Part shown: positions 6,551-45,477 of the stretch, one piece after another
Layout: the number at the start of each line of letters is the position of its first letter
How positions within the stretch are numbered: position 1 is the stretch's first letter
Source of the DNA: Ignavibacteria bacterium
Lineage (GTDB): Bacteria; Bacteroidota; Ignavibacteria; Tepidaquicellales; OLB5
Direction of reading: 5' to 3'
Assembly: GCA_017303675.1 (NCBI GenBank)
Contig: JAFLBX010000002.1
Location: 1,083,642-1,147,641 of the forward strand
Length of the DNA stretch: 64,000 nucleotides
Made by a program: the position numbers and the translations under genes
Notes under the pieces: model-generated
Told to the model about the DNA's origin: nothing
The model's database searches: none
What the model saw: the letters and a program-made list of their open reading frames with translations, nothing else

Positions 6551-8326
6551 ATGTTACAAATTTACAGAAATATTACGATAATTATCGGATTTTTAATTTT
6601 ATTTTTATCCGATCCGGTTTTAAGCCAGCCACAGGCAAAGATAAATTTTTTAGAAATTACCGGGAATGATTTTTTTTCCGATAAAGAGCTTCAGAATTTT
6701 ATTGCATCCAAACCAGGCGCTTTTTTTTCACCTGCTCAATTTGAGCTTGACCAGAGATATATAATTAAAGTTTACCAGGATAACGGCTTCACAGATTGTA
6801 AGATCACATCTTCAGGGTATAAATACAACTTCGATTCAACCGGGGTAGCGCTGGATATTTCAGTTGATGAAGGAGCAAGAATATTTATTGGAGATATTGT
6901 AATAGAAGGCAGCAGGATTTTTACGACTAACTTCCTTAAAGATAATATGGATACAAAAACAGGTGAAGTATTGAATGCTGTTACTTTGAATAAAGATATG
7001 AGCGACCTGTTAAATCTTTACGAGAACAAAGGGTTCACTTTTGCTTCAATAGAAGTTGCAGAAATTTCAGAATATAATGATGGCTCCGGGAAAAAACTGA
7101 GGATAAAAATAATAATTAATGAAAATGAAAAAATAAAAATTGATAATATAACTGTTGAAGGAAATACAAATACACGCAAAGAAGTAATTACACGTGAAAT
7201 TACCCTGGGAGAAGGGAGCACTGTTTCAAGGGAAAATCTGATCGAAATAAGACGCAGACTTGAAAACCTGGGTTACTTTGAAAGTGTTGAACAACCAAAG
7301 ATACTGAAATATAAGAATTCCACTGTACTTTTAATTAAAGTAAAGGAAGGTAATACCAATACATTTGACGGGATCTTAGGCTATGTTCCTCCTTCGCAGA
7401 CTGAAGATAAGGGATATTTTACAGGACTTGTGAATTTATCGATAAGAAACTTATTTGGTACCGGAAGAAAAGTTGAAGCAAGATTTAAAAAAGAGATAAA
7501 AACCACACAGGAGCTTGAACTGAACTATCTTGAGCCATGGGTTTTAGGCTACCCGGTAAATATGAATTTTGCATTTCTTCAGAGGATCGAGGATTCATCT
7601 TATATTAAACGAGATCTTAGCTTTAAAACTGACGCTATGATCACTAAAAAGATAACTGTTTCGGCAATCTTTGATTATGAACGGGTAATACCGACATCAC
7701 AAAGTAATTTTTTCACTATTTTTGACAGCCGCGTTTTAGGCGCAGGAATTGAAATAAAATATGACAGCAGGGATTATGTTTACAATCCGCTTTCAGGAAT
7801 TTTATACCGTACGAGTTATTCAGTTGGTCAGAAAAAAATTTACAATTCATCCTCATTCCCTTTGCTGGATATACCCGGAGATTTTACAGTGCAGAACGGT
7901 GCAATGCACCTTGATTTTTACTACAGCTTCTTCAAACGCCAAAGCTCACTGCTTGGGCTTCACGGCGTTGAAATACGCTCACCCCGTTTTGAAGCTGCTG
8001 ACCTTTTCAGGCTGGGTGGAAACAGTACAGTAAGAGGTTACCGTGAAGGGCAATTTTTAGCTTCACGGGCGGCATGGGGAAATTTTGAGCTGCGTTATTC
8101 ACTCACCCGCCGCAGCTTTGCTGCAATATTTTATGATGCAGGCTATTACCTGAAGCCTGAAGATGATATCTATAATATTCCCTCGCAGGAAGGATTCATT
8201 TTTGGTTACGGTCTTGGAGTTAGGATTGAGACTTCCCTGGGAATGTTCGGTGTAAGCTACGCCCTTGGCAGGGGTGATTCTATTTTAGAGGGTAAGATAC
8301 ACTTCGGGCTGGTTAATGATTTTTGA
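6551..8326 (+). CDS. Omp85/BamA-family outer-membrane protein with three POTRA domains
   Basis: 591 residues. A signal peptide (1-25, ending LSQ) is followed by three POTRA-like domains (about 28-104, 105-188 and 190-262) and a C-terminal 16-stranded surface-antigen barrel. The L6-loop signature V494-R-G-Y497 is present, and the chain ends in the aromatic F typical of outer-membrane proteins. BamA proper usually has five POTRAs and about 800 residues, so this is shorter and closer in layout to TamA-like members. Probable role: insertion or translocation of outer-membrane proteins. It is one of three proteins in the window with this kind of barrel (see 32515 and 42238). The repeat array starts directly downstream. 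Confidence 0.88.
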   Translation: MLQIYRNITIIIGFLILFLSDPVLSQPQAKINFLEITGNDFFSDKELQNFIASKPGAFFSPAQFELDQRYIIKVYQDNGFTDCKITSSGYKYNFDSTGVALDISVDEGARIFIGDIVIEGSRIFTTNFLKDNMDTKTGEVLNAVTLNKDMSDLLNLYENKGFTFASIEVAEISEYNDGSGKKLRIKIIINENEKIKIDNITVEGNTNTRKEVITREITLGEGSTVSRENLIEIRRRLENLGYFESVEQPKILKYKNSTVLLIKVKEGNTNTFDGILGYVPPSQTEDKGYFTGLVNLSIRNLFGTGRKVEARFKKEIKTTQELELNYLEPWVLGYPVNMNFAFLQRIEDSSYIKRDLSFKTDAMITKKITVSAIFDYERVIPTSQSNFFTIFDSRVLGAGIEIKYDSRDYVYNPLSGILYRTSYSVGQKKIYNSSSFPLLDIPGDFTVQNGAMHLDFYYSFFKRQSSLLGLHGVEIRSPRFEAADLFRLGGNSTVRGYREGQFLASRAAWGNFELRYSLTRRSFAAIFYDAGYYLKPEDDIYNIPSQEGFIFGYGLGVRIETSLGMFGVSYALGRGDSILEGKIHFGLVNDF

Positions 8327-39583: not shown

Positions 39584-42151
39584 ATGTATCCATATCATAT
39601 TATCAAATTATTCTTCTTTACTCTTCTGCTATCTCAACTGGTTTTAGCTCAAAACCGGAATTCTGATAATCCGGAAACAGGCACCATAACCGGGACCATT
39701 ACTAAACCTGATGGTTCCGCAATTGAAGGGGCAATCCTGATATTGACATCTGAGAATACACGAGAAGCAGGAACAGAAACAGATGTCTCGGGAAAGTTTA
39801 TTTTAGATAACCTTCAGCCCGGTATTTATAATTTAAAAGCAGAATTAATTGGTTATAAATCTGCGGAACGGAAAAATCTCACAGTTTTTGCAGGTGATAC
39901 ATTAAAGACTGATATTATTCTTGATGATGAAAGCTATTCCACCGAAGAAATTGATGTAGTTTCAGACCGTTTCAGACAGGCACAAAACGATATGAGGATA
40001 AGTCTTCAGAATCTTTCACCCAAAACAACAAGGGTGATCCCCGGAGTTGGTGAAGATGTATTGCGATCTTTACAAACATTACCCGGCGTAAGTGCGCCGA
40101 ATGATTTTTCTTCACAGCTGATAGTACGCGGTTCAGGTCCTGACCAGAACCTTATAATAATGGATAACATAGAGATCTTTAATCCATACAGGCTGTACGG
40201 AGTATTCAGTATGTTCAACCCTGAAACGCTTGAGGATATAAATTTAATTACCGGCGGTTTTCCTTCAAAGTATGGTGACAGGCTTTCTGCAGTTCTGGAA
40301 GTAGCAAACCGCGAAGGCAGCAAGACAAAATACTTCACCGGTCAGACAAATGTTAATATAGCGAACGCAAACCTGGTATTCAGCGGGAAAATACCATTTA
40401 AAAATATTCCGGGTTCATGGATAGTTTCAACAAGGAGGAGTTATTACGATCTTATCCTCGACCCATTCGCAAAGAAATCCGGTTTAATAGATGAAAGCGC
40501 ATCCTTCCCTTCTTTTGAAGATGTACAGGGGAAAATAACTTTGGGTCCGTTTAAAGACCATAAATTAATTCTTAACGGAATTTATTCCCGTGACGGAGTA
40601 AATATTATTCCAGGTGATTCAAAAGAGCTTGAAGACTCAGTTTCGGTGCGTGACCAGTCATCAAATGATGTATTGGGATTAGCCTGGCATTATGCGCCAA
40701 ATACAAAATTCCTTACTAAAACCACTTTTTCCTGGTACCGTAATAAAGGTGATGCCCAGTTTGGAGGCGAACTGCTTGACCCGGTGCTTGACAGGGAAAC
40801 ATACACACCTGAAGTTCGCGACAGCCTGCGGGCATTAGGGTTATTTTTAGGAATAGGGTTTAAATCCAAATACACTTTCCGAAAGTATGCGATACAGAAC
40901 AGCACAATTTTTATATCAGGTGCGCACAAGACTGAAATTGGCGCAGGGATTGATATACTTCGGACTGATCTTGAATTCACACTTGATCTTGATGACAGGC
41001 TTAAAGCAATAGTTCAGAACAACCCGAATTTTAATGCAATTTCTAACGGTCAGCTTGATGGCAAAGATTATTACCGAGCAAATTTTTATATTCAGGATAG
41101 ACTGAAGCTTTCAGACAAGCTTTATATACAGTTCGGAGCCCGTTTTGATTATTTTGCAATTAATAAAAAAGCATACCTCTCGCCACGGATAAATTTATCT
41201 TATGCTATAGATAAAGTTACAACGGTGCGTGCCGGAACCGGTATCTATTACCAGTCACCCGGTTACGAAAAATTAATTGATGCCCAGATATTTTTTGACC
41301 TAAGTGAAGAAAAAGCTAAAAGGCTAGAAGCTGAGCGCTCAGTACATTATATACTAGGAGCTGAAAGATGGCTTTCTAATGACCTGCTTGTTAAATTTGA
41401 AACATACTATAAGCAGTTTACAAATCTAATAGTCCAGGAACAATTAACAGGCTACAGGTATGAATTCTACAGGTACGACCCAAATAATAATGACCCAGAA
41501 TATCTGCGTGACCCGGATAACTGGTACCGCAGCTCTGAGAAGCTGCCGTATGATTCTGTAACCGCTACTCCAGTAAACGGAGCAAACGGGTATTCATACG
41601 GTTTTGAATTCTATATAGAAAAAAAGGCTGTAAACCCAAGCTCTAAATTTTCAGGGTGGCTGAGCTACTCTCTTAGTTATGCAAACCGTTTGCGCAACGG
41701 ACTTGAAACACCTTTCAGGTATGACCAGCGGCATTCAATAAATGTTGTTGCAAACTACAAGCTCTTAAGCTGGCTGGAGCTTGGGGCAAGGTTCAATTAT
41801 TCTTCAAACTTCCCTGTCACACTTCCTAAAGGAATCCGTCCAAGAGTTGTTGGTGACTCACTTGCAGTATTGCCAATACTAAACCTTGTCCAGTTCGATT
41901 TTGAATTTGGAGGCAATGAAAATAAATTTGCCGATAAAAAACCGGTTTATCACAGGCTGGATCTAAGAGCGACAGCATATACAAAATTCTGGGGAATTGA
42001 TTGGGGATTTTATATAGATGTGATAAACGTTTATAACAGGCAGAATGTTATAGGATATGATTTTTATATAGATGAAAATTTAGAGGTAAAGCTGAAACCC
42101 ATTGGGCAATTCCCTGTATTACCAACTATAGGAGTAAACGCAAGGTTTTAG
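39584..42151 (+). CDS. TonB-dependent receptor with carboxypeptidase-regulatory-like domain
   Basis: 855 residues. A signal peptide (1-23, ending VLAQ), an extra N-terminal CarboxypepD_reg-like domain (about 31-115, with GTITKPDGSAIEGA and DVSGKFILDNLQPG), a plug domain (about 140-260, with LQTLPGVSAPNDF and VRGSGPDQNL) and a 22-stranded barrel ending in GVNARF. Uses ExbB/ExbD/TonB energy to import a ligand that could be a siderophore, a peptide or a glycan; no SusD-type partner follows, so ligand class is open. No ribosome site is evident before ATG 39584. The next gene, a protease-barrel fusion, follows after 86 bases on the same strand. Confidence 0.93.
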   Translation: MYPYHIIKLFFFTLLLSQLVLAQNRNSDNPETGTITGTITKPDGSAIEGAILILTSENTREAGTETDVSGKFILDNLQPGIYNLKAELIGYKSAERKNLTVFAGDTLKTDIILDDESYSTEEIDVVSDRFRQAQNDMRISLQNLSPKTTRVIPGVGEDVLRSLQTLPGVSAPNDFSSQLIVRGSGPDQNLIIMDNIEIFNPYRLYGVFSMFNPETLEDINLITGGFPSKYGDRLSAVLEVANREGSKTKYFTGQTNVNIANANLVFSGKIPFKNIPGSWIVSTRRSYYDLILDPFAKKSGLIDESASFPSFEDVQGKITLGPFKDHKLILNGIYSRDGVNIIPGDSKELEDSVSVRDQSSNDVLGLAWHYAPNTKFLTKTTFSWYRNKGDAQFGGELLDPVLDRETYTPEVRDSLRALGLFLGIGFKSKYTFRKYAIQNSTIFISGAHKTEIGAGIDILRTDLEFTLDLDDRLKAIVQNNPNFNAISNGQLDGKDYYRANFYIQDRLKLSDKLYIQFGARFDYFAINKKAYLSPRINLSYAIDKVTTVRAGTGIYYQSPGYEKLIDAQIFFDLSEEKAKRLEAERSVHYILGAERWLSNDLLVKFETYYKQFTNLIVQEQLTGYRYEFYRYDPNNNDPEYLRDPDNWYRSSEKLPYDSVTATPVNGANGYSYGFEFYIEKKAVNPSSKFSGWLSYSLSYANRLRNGLETPFRYDQRHSINVVANYKLLSWLELGARFNYSSNFPVTLPKGIRPRVVGDSLAVLPILNLVQFDFEFGGNENKFADKKPVYHRLDLRATAYTKFWGIDWGFYIDVINVYNRQNVIGYDFYIDENLEVKLKPIGQFPVLPTIGVNARF

Positions 42152-42237: not shown

Positions 42238-45200
42238 ATGGTAATAATGAAGTTAAAAAATATTTTAAGCCCGGGATTCCTGCTAAGATCAATACTTACA
42301 GCATTTGTTTTGTTAATACTTACCGGAAATGTCTATTCCCAGTTTGGGCAAAACAAAGTGCAGTACAAGGTATTTGAATGGAAATACCTGCAATCACAGC
42401 ATTTTGATATTTATTTTAACCAGGGTGGTGAGTTTATTGCACAATTCACGGCAGTTGCTGCTGAGAGTTCACTGGTAAGCCTGGAAAATAATATCGGGTA
42501 CGGAATTAAGAACAGGATACCGATCATATTATTCAATTCTCATAATGAGTTCCAGCAGAATAATGCAGTTGATGAATATCTATCTGAAGGAATTGGCGGC
42601 GTAACTGAGCTTTTCAAGAACAGAATAGTAGTTCCCTTTGAAGGAGATTATGAAAAATTCCGCCATGTGATCCACCATGAGCTACTTCATGCATATATGA
42701 ATGATATGTATTACGGCGGTTCACTGCAGAACATAATTTCGCAGAATATAGCTCTTCAGTTCCCCGGGTGGTTTTCTGAGGGTATGGCTGAATACCAGTC
42801 AATAGGTGGAATGGATAAAGCTAATGATATGTTCATTAGAGACGCTGTAATTTATGATTACCTGCCTCCGCTTGATTATATTGACGGGTATCTTTCATAT
42901 CGCGGAGGCCAGAGCTTTTTTTCATGGCTGGCTGATGAATACGGAAAAGAAAAGATAGGCGACCTGATGATACAGATTAAAGCGCTGGGAGATGTAGATG
43001 AAGGATTTGTTGATGTTTACAATATGGGCATTGAAAAGCTATCTGAAAAATGGCATAAATCATTAAAGCAGACATATTGGCCGGATATCAATACAAGACA
43101 GGAGCTGAGTGATTTCGCGAACCGTTTGACAAATTCACGTGAAGGTGACGGATTTTACAATACCGCTCCATCGATCTCACCCAAAGGAGATAAGGTTGTA
43201 TTTATTTCAAACCGTGACGATTATTTCAGTGTATATATAGCAGATATCAAGTCAGGTAAAATTTTAAAAAAGCTAATTGGCGGGAACCAGACCGCTGATT
43301 TTGAAGAGCTGCATTTACTCACACCGGGTTTATGCTGGTCACCTGACGGTAAAAAAGTAGCCATATCGGTAAAAAGCGGCGATAAAGATGCAATATATAT
43401 AATTGATGCTGAAGATGGCGATGAAGATGTTTTGCCTATCGAACATGACGGAATATTTTCTGTTGACTGGAATCCGGTTAACAATTCATTAGTTTACCGC
43501 GGTGATAATGCAAAGCAGTCAGATATATGGATCTACAATCTTAAAACAAAAAAGAAACAAAGAGTAACCAATGATCTTTTCACCGATATAGATCCCAAGT
43601 GGTCAAGAGACGGTAAACTTATATATTTCTCTTCTGACAGAAGCACTTATACAAACCTTAATGATATACCGACAGATTTTGATATGAATTCATACGATTA
43701 CAAGGATAAAGATCTGTATGTTTATGATGTTGAAGCCGGCAAGCTTTCACGGTTTACTGAAGATAAAAATGCGAATGAATCAAGTGTAGTTACTTCACCT
43801 GACGGCAAAAAGGTACTTTATATTTCTGACAGAAACGGGATTGATAATATTTGGATGCGTAATTTAGAAACAGGAGAAGAAAAGCCCATAACTAACACCC
43901 TGGACCCGATAAGCCTGCTGTCGCTTTCTGCAGACGGGAAACGGCTTGCATTTACAGCTTTAAACAGGGGCGGCTATGATATTTTTTATCTTGAAAATCC
44001 GTTTGAAATTGATATAGCAATGACTGAATTGCCGAATACACAATTTGTACAGAAACGAATTGACGAGATGAAAAAGCTTACTTCGTCAGATTCTCTTAAG
44101 CTTTTTACAGATTCAATGCGGGTTATTGCGGATTCACTTATGAATTTAACAGGTGATACCACCGGTGTGAATTCTGATTACACTGTATCTGACAGTACTG
44201 TTACTGACTCAACAAAATCACTTTACGGTGATGATGTTGCATTAAATTTAAATCCTGAAAAGGTTGATTCAACTAAACAATCACCTTCTCAGCGCCTGAA
44301 GCTGAAGGAAAAGAATAAAAGTAAATTCCAGCTGACCGATAACACCAATCCGGACGGCAGCTACAAAGTAAATAATTACAAGATCAAATTTTCACCTGAT
44401 CTTATTTACAGTAATGCCAATTACAGCAGTTTTTACGGAGTCCAGGGAACTGCGCAAATGGCATTCAGCGATGTATTGGGAAATCACAGAATATATGTAG
44501 CAACAAGTCTTGTACTGGATCTTAAAAACAGTGATTACGCGTTTGCATATTACTATCTTCCCAAAAGGATCGATTGGGGTATAAGCGCATACCACTCTGC
44601 AAGGTTTTTACTTATCGGAAGAAACTTTTCGACTTCACAGTTATACCGTTACCGGACATTCGGAGGAGATATCAGTCTATCATACCCGATAAGTAAATTT
44701 AAGCGTATTGAAGGAGCGCTTTCTTACAATCATTTAACCAAAGAAAATCTGGATAACCCGGCAGAACCTTCGCAGAACCTGGATTTTATACTTCCCGCTA
44801 TAAGTTATGTTCATGATAACACTTTATGGGGTTATACAGCACCAATTAAAGGTTCACGTTATAAACTGACATTACTTGGAACACCAAAAATAGGCTCTAA
44901 CGGCGTTAGTTTCTTCAGTGCACTGGCAGATTACAGGACCTATTTTGAAATTGCTGATGATTATAACTTTGTGTTAAGGCTGAACGGCGGGGCAAGCTTC
45001 GGTAAGAATCCCCAGCGTTTTTATATAGGCGGTACAGAAAGCTGGATCAATTATGAAGTCCAAAATGATATTCTGCCTATTGAGGATATTCAGGACTTTG
45101 CATTTTCAACAGCGGTAATGCCGCTAAGAGGCTACAACTATAACTACCGTTCAGGGAGTAAGTTTGCGTTAATGAATGCTGAATTCAGATTCCCGCTTTT

Positions 45201-45477
45201 CAGATACCTGATATTAGGTTTATTACCGCTTGGATTTCAGAATATACAAGGGGTAATTTTCGCGGATGCAGGTTCAGTTTGGAGTGACACCAAAAAACTT
45301 CAGTTCTTTCATAAAAATAACGGAAGCCTGCAAACAAAAGATCTGCTGTTGAGTGCCGGTATTGGTACAAGATTGTTTTTCTTATATTTCCCGATGAAGC
45401 TGGATATAGCGTGGACCTATGATATGCAGAACTGGTCAAAGCCTAAATATATGATATCAATAGGAGCAGATTTTTAA
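42238..45477 (+). CDS. Metalloprotease-like/PD40 propeller/Omp85-like barrel fusion
   Basis: 1079 residues; ATG 42247 is an alternative start. Order: signal segment (to about residue 36, VYSQ); a peptidase MA-like gluzincin domain with H147-E-L-L-H151 and downstream WFSEGMAEYQS offering E181/E185 as third zinc ligand; about six TolB/PD40-type beta-propeller blades (about 300-600: ISPKGDKVVFISNRDD, SPDGKKV repeated); a Ser/Asp/Thr-rich linker (about 625-700); and a C-terminal barrel with L963-R-G-Y966, like the L6 signature of surface antigens, ending IGADF. Expected to sit in the outer membrane with protease and propeller in the periplasm. A role in outer-membrane protein quality control or assembly is inference. 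Confidence 0.85.
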   Translation: MVIMKLKNILSPGFLLRSILTAFVLLILTGNVYSQFGQNKVQYKVFEWKYLQSQHFDIYFNQGGEFIAQFTAVAAESSLVSLENNIGYGIKNRIPIILFNSHNEFQQNNAVDEYLSEGIGGVTELFKNRIVVPFEGDYEKFRHVIHHELLHAYMNDMYYGGSLQNIISQNIALQFPGWFSEGMAEYQSIGGMDKANDMFIRDAVIYDYLPPLDYIDGYLSYRGGQSFFSWLADEYGKEKIGDLMIQIKALGDVDEGFVDVYNMGIEKLSEKWHKSLKQTYWPDINTRQELSDFANRLTNSREGDGFYNTAPSISPKGDKVVFISNRDDYFSVYIADIKSGKILKKLIGGNQTADFEELHLLTPGLCWSPDGKKVAISVKSGDKDAIYIIDAEDGDEDVLPIEHDGIFSVDWNPVNNSLVYRGDNAKQSDIWIYNLKTKKKQRVTNDLFTDIDPKWSRDGKLIYFSSDRSTYTNLNDIPTDFDMNSYDYKDKDLYVYDVEAGKLSRFTEDKNANESSVVTSPDGKKVLYISDRNGIDNIWMRNLETGEEKPITNTLDPISLLSLSADGKRLAFTALNRGGYDIFYLENPFEIDIAMTELPNTQFVQKRIDEMKKLTSSDSLKLFTDSMRVIADSLMNLTGDTTGVNSDYTVSDSTVTDSTKSLYGDDVALNLNPEKVDSTKQSPSQRLKLKEKNKSKFQLTDNTNPDGSYKVNNYKIKFSPDLIYSNANYSSFYGVQGTAQMAFSDVLGNHRIYVATSLVLDLKNSDYAFAYYYLPKRIDWGISAYHSARFLLIGRNFSTSQLYRYRTFGGDISLSYPISKFKRIEGALSYNHLTKENLDNPAEPSQNLDFILPAISYVHDNTLWGYTAPIKGSRYKLTLLGTPKIGSNGVSFFSALADYRTYFEIADDYNFVLRLNGGASFGKNPQRFYIGGTESWINYEVQNDILPIEDIQDFAFSTAVMPLRGYNYNYRSGSKFALMNAEFRFPLFRYLILGLLPLGFQNIQGVIFADAGSVWSDTKKLQFFHKNNGSLQTKDLLLSAGIGTRLFFLYFPMKLDIAWTYDMQNWSKPKYMISIGADF

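Follow-up and report, generated by a model that had tools for sequence, protein, structure and literature searches.

What might a single gene do at the outer membrane if it joins a zinc protease, a beta-propeller and an Omp85 barrel in one polypeptide? The question is raised by an open reading frame in a 64,000-nucleotide stretch of DNA (the window) from an Ignavibacteria bacterium (GCA_017303675.1, JAFLBX010000002.1, 1,083,642-1,147,641, forward). An earlier note on this DNA had proposed that a complete HELLH zinc site, TolB-type PD40 blades and a barrel with an LRGY L6-like motif are fused. An open reading frame analysis of the window identifies one intact polypeptide with no interruption, here called paralogue A (Table 1), and the fusion stands: the single frame carries PF13485, PF07676 and PF01103, each matched at an E-value that chance would not give. 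The order from the N to the C terminus is signal peptide, Peptidase_MA_2 domain, TolB-like PD40 propeller, linker and Omp85 barrel. The signal peptide and its cleavage site were read from the sequence by eye, with no prediction program, and an FGxNxVQY motif common to homologues follows directly. An assembly artefact as the source of the fusion was rejected because matches to paralogue A are found in all 39 of the 39 genomes of the order that were searched. Promoter and terminator scans gave results near chance.

Table 1. Coordinates of paralogue A, its domains and motifs, its upstream neighbour and related loci (window numbering unless a locus is named)
Feature	Location	Strand	Description
TonB-dependent receptor-like gene	39584..42151	+	855 aa; 86 bp upstream of the paralogue A frame
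Whole frame, paralogue A	42238..45477	+	Peptidase-propeller-Omp85 barrel protein; 1079 aa plus stop
Signal peptide, residues 1-34	42238..42339	+	Hydrophobic stretch, ends VYS/QFG
Peptidase_MA_2 (gluzincin-type) domain, residues 35-285	42340..43092	+	Pfam match and conservation
HELLH zinc motif, residues 147-151	42676..42690	+	Unchanged in all 31 A-type proteins
E181, presumed third zinc ligand	42778..42780	+	In WFSEGMAEY (HExxH-x29-E); role by analogy with gluzincins
TolB-like PD40 beta-propeller, residues 305-590	43150..44007	+	Modeled with about six blades at high pLDDT
Linker, residues 591-713	44008..44376	+	Variable, about 120 residues
Omp85/BamA-like 16-stranded barrel, residues 714-1079	44377..45474	+	Pfam, AlphaFold2 model, fold comparison
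LRGY L6-type motif, residues 963-966	45124..45135	+	In the long loop that joins strands 11 and 12
Paralogue C loci, sister family	L056:5432-8521, L057:5552-8671, L058:6308-9391, L059:6097-9216		
Zinc-less homologue loci	L128 (G308), L132 (G316), L139, L140, L142, L143, L145, L156, L158, L160		

The N-terminal domain matches PF13485 (Peptidase_MA_2) at residues 74-277 in Pfam with an E-value of 3.3e-12, or 1e-13 with the domain alone. The match spans positions 1-200 of the 201 in the model, and PF13485 is also matched by 26 of the 26 members of homologue set A3. HExxH and a downstream glutamate lie within this fold, as is characteristic of the gluzincins of the Peptidase MA clan, and E181, which the earlier note did not name, completes the zinc site that it had claimed. 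Residues H147, E148, H151, W178, E181 and R964 are invariant in the 31 A-type proteins, which come from about 25 families. Mean identity over 30 homologues is 53.5% in the peptidase, 46% in the barrel, 43% in the propeller and 12% in the linker, so that the strongest constraint lies on the protease domain. A chance HExxH was rejected on the whole-domain match and this conservation. The motif is present in 55 of 65 sampled homologue rows, and its loss in most homologues, which would have counted against the original reading, is not seen. A profile search of the domain against the PDB returned one weak collagenase match (E 0.18) and nothing else, and in the full-length AlphaFold2 model the domain has a pLDDT of about 25 and no confident fold.

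In the propeller, Pfam assigns four PD40 repeats (PF07676, E 1.2e-21), and the best NCBIfam match is TolB (TIGR02800, E 2.9e-36). This match scores 125 bits, far under the equivalog cutoff of 343, and the propeller is thus TolB-like rather than TolB. A PDB sequence search with the protein gives meaningful E-values only for propellers, chiefly TolB, and the full-length model places TolB first in Foldseek (BamA follows at rank 48). No match in this genome reaches the TolB equivalog cutoff, the best candidate being a PD40 protein of about 342 aa (G000:C1:1308178-1309140) with 100.7 of the 343 bits, and a classic TolB may be absent from the genome. The linker that follows the propeller has a mean identity of 11.6% and low pLDDT over residues 591-700. 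No POTRA domain is matched at E<=1 in Pfam, in the linker or elsewhere in the protein.

At the C terminus, Pfam identifies Omp85 (PF01103) at residues 772-1065 with an E-value of 7.3e-15. The full-length AlphaFold2 run, which used an alignment with 13 homologues, reached a mean pLDDT of 47; it yields a confident propeller, the only part to be trusted, and an arrangement of the domains that is unreadable. The barrel was also modeled on its own (residues 700-1079; mean pLDDT 61.6, pTM 0.63). This model has 16 strands. Strands 11 and 12 are connected by a long loop, modeled with low confidence, which contains LRGY and corresponds in position to L6 of BamA. Its leading Foldseek matches are all BamA (E about 1e-12), and VIA-align superposes it on Escherichia coli BamA (9co2) with a Z-score of 21.6 over 300 residues at an rmsd of 4.3 A, and on the BamA proteins of F. 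johnsoniae and P. gingivalis with Z-scores of about 20-21.5. The barrel claim, with its L6-like motif, is therefore well supported, and the predicted structure gives no sign of the barrel-less fold that would have contradicted it. The 16-stranded barrel and the (V/L)RG(F/Y) motif of L6 are both features of the Omp85 superfamily, and the POTRA domain of its usual members (such as BamA, TamA and PlpD) is the one that was not found.

Seven Omp85-domain matches occur in the genome in all. The best is a separate BamA-like frame of 785 aa (L105) that adjoins small OmpH/Skp-like frames, which makes paralogue A an additional Omp85, and its candidacy as the genome's own BamA was rejected for the same reason. 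The window holds a second Omp85 barrel gene at 7448-8323 (G000:C2:1091089-1091964), in a frame of 592 aa. Ignavibacteria carry up to three paralogues of the peptidase-propeller-barrel type, and all three are present in this genome. Paralogue B (G000:C2:1452673, 970 aa) is 35% identical to A over residues 19-544. Paralogue C (G000:C2:484383-487538, 1071 aa), located with a C profile search, aligns with A over 888 columns in a profile comparison (probability 100, E 1e-40), indicating the same architecture. HExxH and the glutamate are present in both B and C.

The closest records to paralogue A are from Ignavibacteria metagenome-assembled genomes, at up to 90% identity. Of 296 genomes sampled from the phylum, 203 have a match at 1e-10; at E<=1e-14 the number is 193, counted by eye from the table. 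The rarity implied at first is wrong, and the propeller-barrel core had itself been described in 2014 (PMC4104836). From the sequence comparisons, the family is widespread and ancient. Two gene copies (L020 and G003:C260) are broken into three frames by frameshifts or stops, which could reflect draft-assembly errors or real decay. The Salinibacter ruber plasmid pSR116 encodes a peptidase-propeller protein without the barrel (L130:5935-7836), annotated as 'basic secretory protein-like'; genes for a zinc transporter and for a TonB-dependent receptor lie nearby.

The reading preferred here, at a little under even confidence, is that paralogue A is a POTRA-less Omp85 protein that handles clients at its barrel, either outer-membrane or exported proteins, by means of a propeller and a zinc peptidase in the periplasm. 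By analogy, its function is most likely that of an all-in-one unit with a BamA barrel, a BamB-type propeller and a BepA-type protease. After export through Sec, the C-terminal 16-stranded barrel would be inserted by BAM, and the gluzincin domain and TolB-like propeller would hang in the periplasm on the flexible linker, a topology transferred from BamA. The propeller would fill the docking role of the POTRA domains or BamB in BAM, and the peptidase would cleave misfolded, stalled or processing-requiring outer-membrane or exported clients, as BepA does at BAM. The earlier note had likewise set the protease and propeller at the periplasmic mouth of the barrel; the domain order, signal peptide and BamA-like topology support this placement well, and the side of the membrane is what we infer. 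The function it suggested, 'substrate-checking or surface-protein release', is plausible as a guess.

How far this role would depend on catalysis is addressed by homologues that have lost the zinc ligands. HExxH is absent from ten sampled homologues in seven families (f17, f23, f32, f34, f35, f36 and f43), and in most of them the third ligand is gone as well; the ligand site reads, for example, RELAL or REGIAR. These homologues still align through the peptidase domain and keep the peptidase-fold and propeller regions, as well as LRGF or LRGY where covered, and judged from their sequences they are natural pseudoenzymes (pseudopeptidases). On a tree of 65 homologue rows, built with the zinc-ligand columns left out and with the root not fixed, they form two well-supported clusters, one a clade of six families and the other f17, and ligand loss possibly took place in one or two events. 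They show that part of the family can do without catalysis and that the architecture has a use beyond it, so that something other than proteolysis may be the conserved role. An alternative built on these homologues holds that an ancestral platform of propeller and peptidase fold on an Omp85 barrel binds clients, with catalysis an extra that several lineages lost. This account is unlikely. The invariant zinc residues of the A clade and the conservation of its peptidase above all other domains are hard to explain without catalysis, and enzyme loss is confined to one or two clades rather than scattered.

The gene neighborhoods bring in type IX secretion. Of 24 sister-family genomes, 21 have paralogue C head-to-head with sprA, which encodes the translocon of type IX secretion, and in the remaining three C lies at contig ends, so that all 21 informative genomes show the arrangement. 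The gaps are roughly 170-270 bp in the four loci listed in Table 1, and the sister-family C proteins have about 1030-1070 aa and the motif HEFTH..WFAEGTAQY. SprA also occurs in 192 of the 193 phylum-sample genomes that have the family, and T9SS sorting tails are present on proteins whose genes immediately precede the orthologue in L017 and L018. These observations would fit a family that processes or checks proteins crossing the outer membrane via SprA, an explanation that is nonetheless rather improbable. In this order sprA is not the neighbor of paralogue A, and about 60 kb separate C from sprA in the family to which the window belongs; no C-sprA link was seen outside the sister family where positions could be compared. 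The peptidase-propeller-barrel family is missing from 36 genomes with SprA, which fall in three families, and is present without SprA in a single further genome (G040), which suggests that it is not a core T9SS part; the co-occurrence could be explained by shared phylogeny. A T9SS role for paralogue C in particular is possible. In genus g107 of another family (G311, G323, G264, G119, G287 and G189), sprA and an A-type gene share a strand and are separated by about 20 kb.

A further explanation reverses the side of the membrane: the barrel would export the peptidase and propeller to the surface, where they would digest external protein or free surface proteins. Omp85/TpsB relatives do translocate polypeptides, and the barrel-less Salinibacter protein with its secretory annotation would fit such a history. 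Surface delivery through its own barrel was reportedly also the first proposal for PlpD. The N-terminal enzyme domain of PlpD was later proved to stay in the periplasm (PMC11116518). With a barrel that resembles BamA, not TpsB, in the Foldseek match list, and a folded six-bladed propeller that would be a poor passenger for a 16-stranded pore, self-delivery of paralogue A is distinctly doubtful. It is very improbable that paralogue A serves to assemble or process the neighboring TonB-dependent receptor or its ligand: the two genes point the same way and are found together in the genus and also in L013 (L006, L007, L008, L009, L010, L012, L013, L016, L019 and L020), but in L015 and in the sister-family loci that were read A is retained without the receptor as its neighbor. 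In the sister family, A often adjoins M16-peptidase-like and house-keeping genes. No conserved neighborhood linking paralogue A to BAM was found, and the neighbors name no pathway.

The client-handling unit proposed above can be placed in a broader picture, itself conjectural and unlikely to hold in full, of a large, ancient family of outer-membrane machines whose BamA-like barrel carries a zinc protease and a client-binding propeller instead of POTRA domains. Its members would be self-contained assembly and quality-control units, with specialized paralogues (C tied to SprA) and pseudoenzyme lineages. Characterized Omp85 proteins handle their clients through POTRA domains, and in E. coli insertion and quality control reside in separate proteins. 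If the proposal is true, a protease and propeller in the POTRA place provide a natural test of what POTRA domains are needed for, and two activities that E. coli keeps apart are joined in one protein. Relatives that naturally lack the zinc ligands make it possible to tell catalytic from non-catalytic roles, and the family is universal in the sampled Ignavibacteria relatives as well as widespread in the phylum.

Among known systems, no functional or experimental study of the peptidase-propeller-barrel family was found in open-licence papers. PF00149, which we take to be the calcineurin-like phosphoesterase family, has no Pfam match in paralogue A. The Omp85-metalloprotease ('Metallo') subfamily is defined on PF00149 in the main text of Heinz and Lithgow (2014; PMC4104836); its label thus looks like a misnomer, and paralogue A lies outside it. 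The same text recognizes POTRA-less Omp85 subfamilies, among them WD40-Omp85, in which a TolB-like propeller precedes the Omp85 barrel (PMC4104836). Paralogue A shares the barrel, the N-terminal TolB-like propeller directly before it and the lack of a POTRA domain, and it fits WD40-Omp85 by this definition. The propeller-barrel core was therefore already known in 2014, whereas the zinc peptidase before the propeller does not appear in the main text of that paper (PMC4104836).

Compared with BamA, including the F. johnsoniae and P. gingivalis proteins, paralogue A has the same 16-stranded barrel, (V/L)RG(F/Y) L6 motif and 11-12 loop, and a peptidase and propeller in place of the POTRA domains. 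Its propeller resembles TolB of Tol-Pal, the source of its best PDB sequence and fold matches, and presumably takes a position beside an Omp85 barrel like that of BamB, a propeller bound to BamA (PMC13067283). Unlike TolB and BamB, it is fused to the barrel and a peptidase. With the M48 quality-control proteases of outer-membrane proteins (OMPs), BepA, YcaL and LoiP, paralogue A shares a zinc metallopeptidase with HExxH and a glutamate and a proposed action at OMP assembly, BepA acting on BAM-stalled OMPs (PMC13067283). Those proteases are separate proteins, whereas the peptidase of paralogue A, with its predicted activity, falls in another Pfam family (PF13485 instead of M48) and is covalently joined to the barrel. 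PlpD, the patatin-Omp85 protein of type Vd secretion, is likewise a single chain with an enzyme domain ahead of its Omp85 barrel; it combines a lipase with one POTRA and no propeller, whereas paralogue A combines a peptidase with a propeller and no POTRA match.
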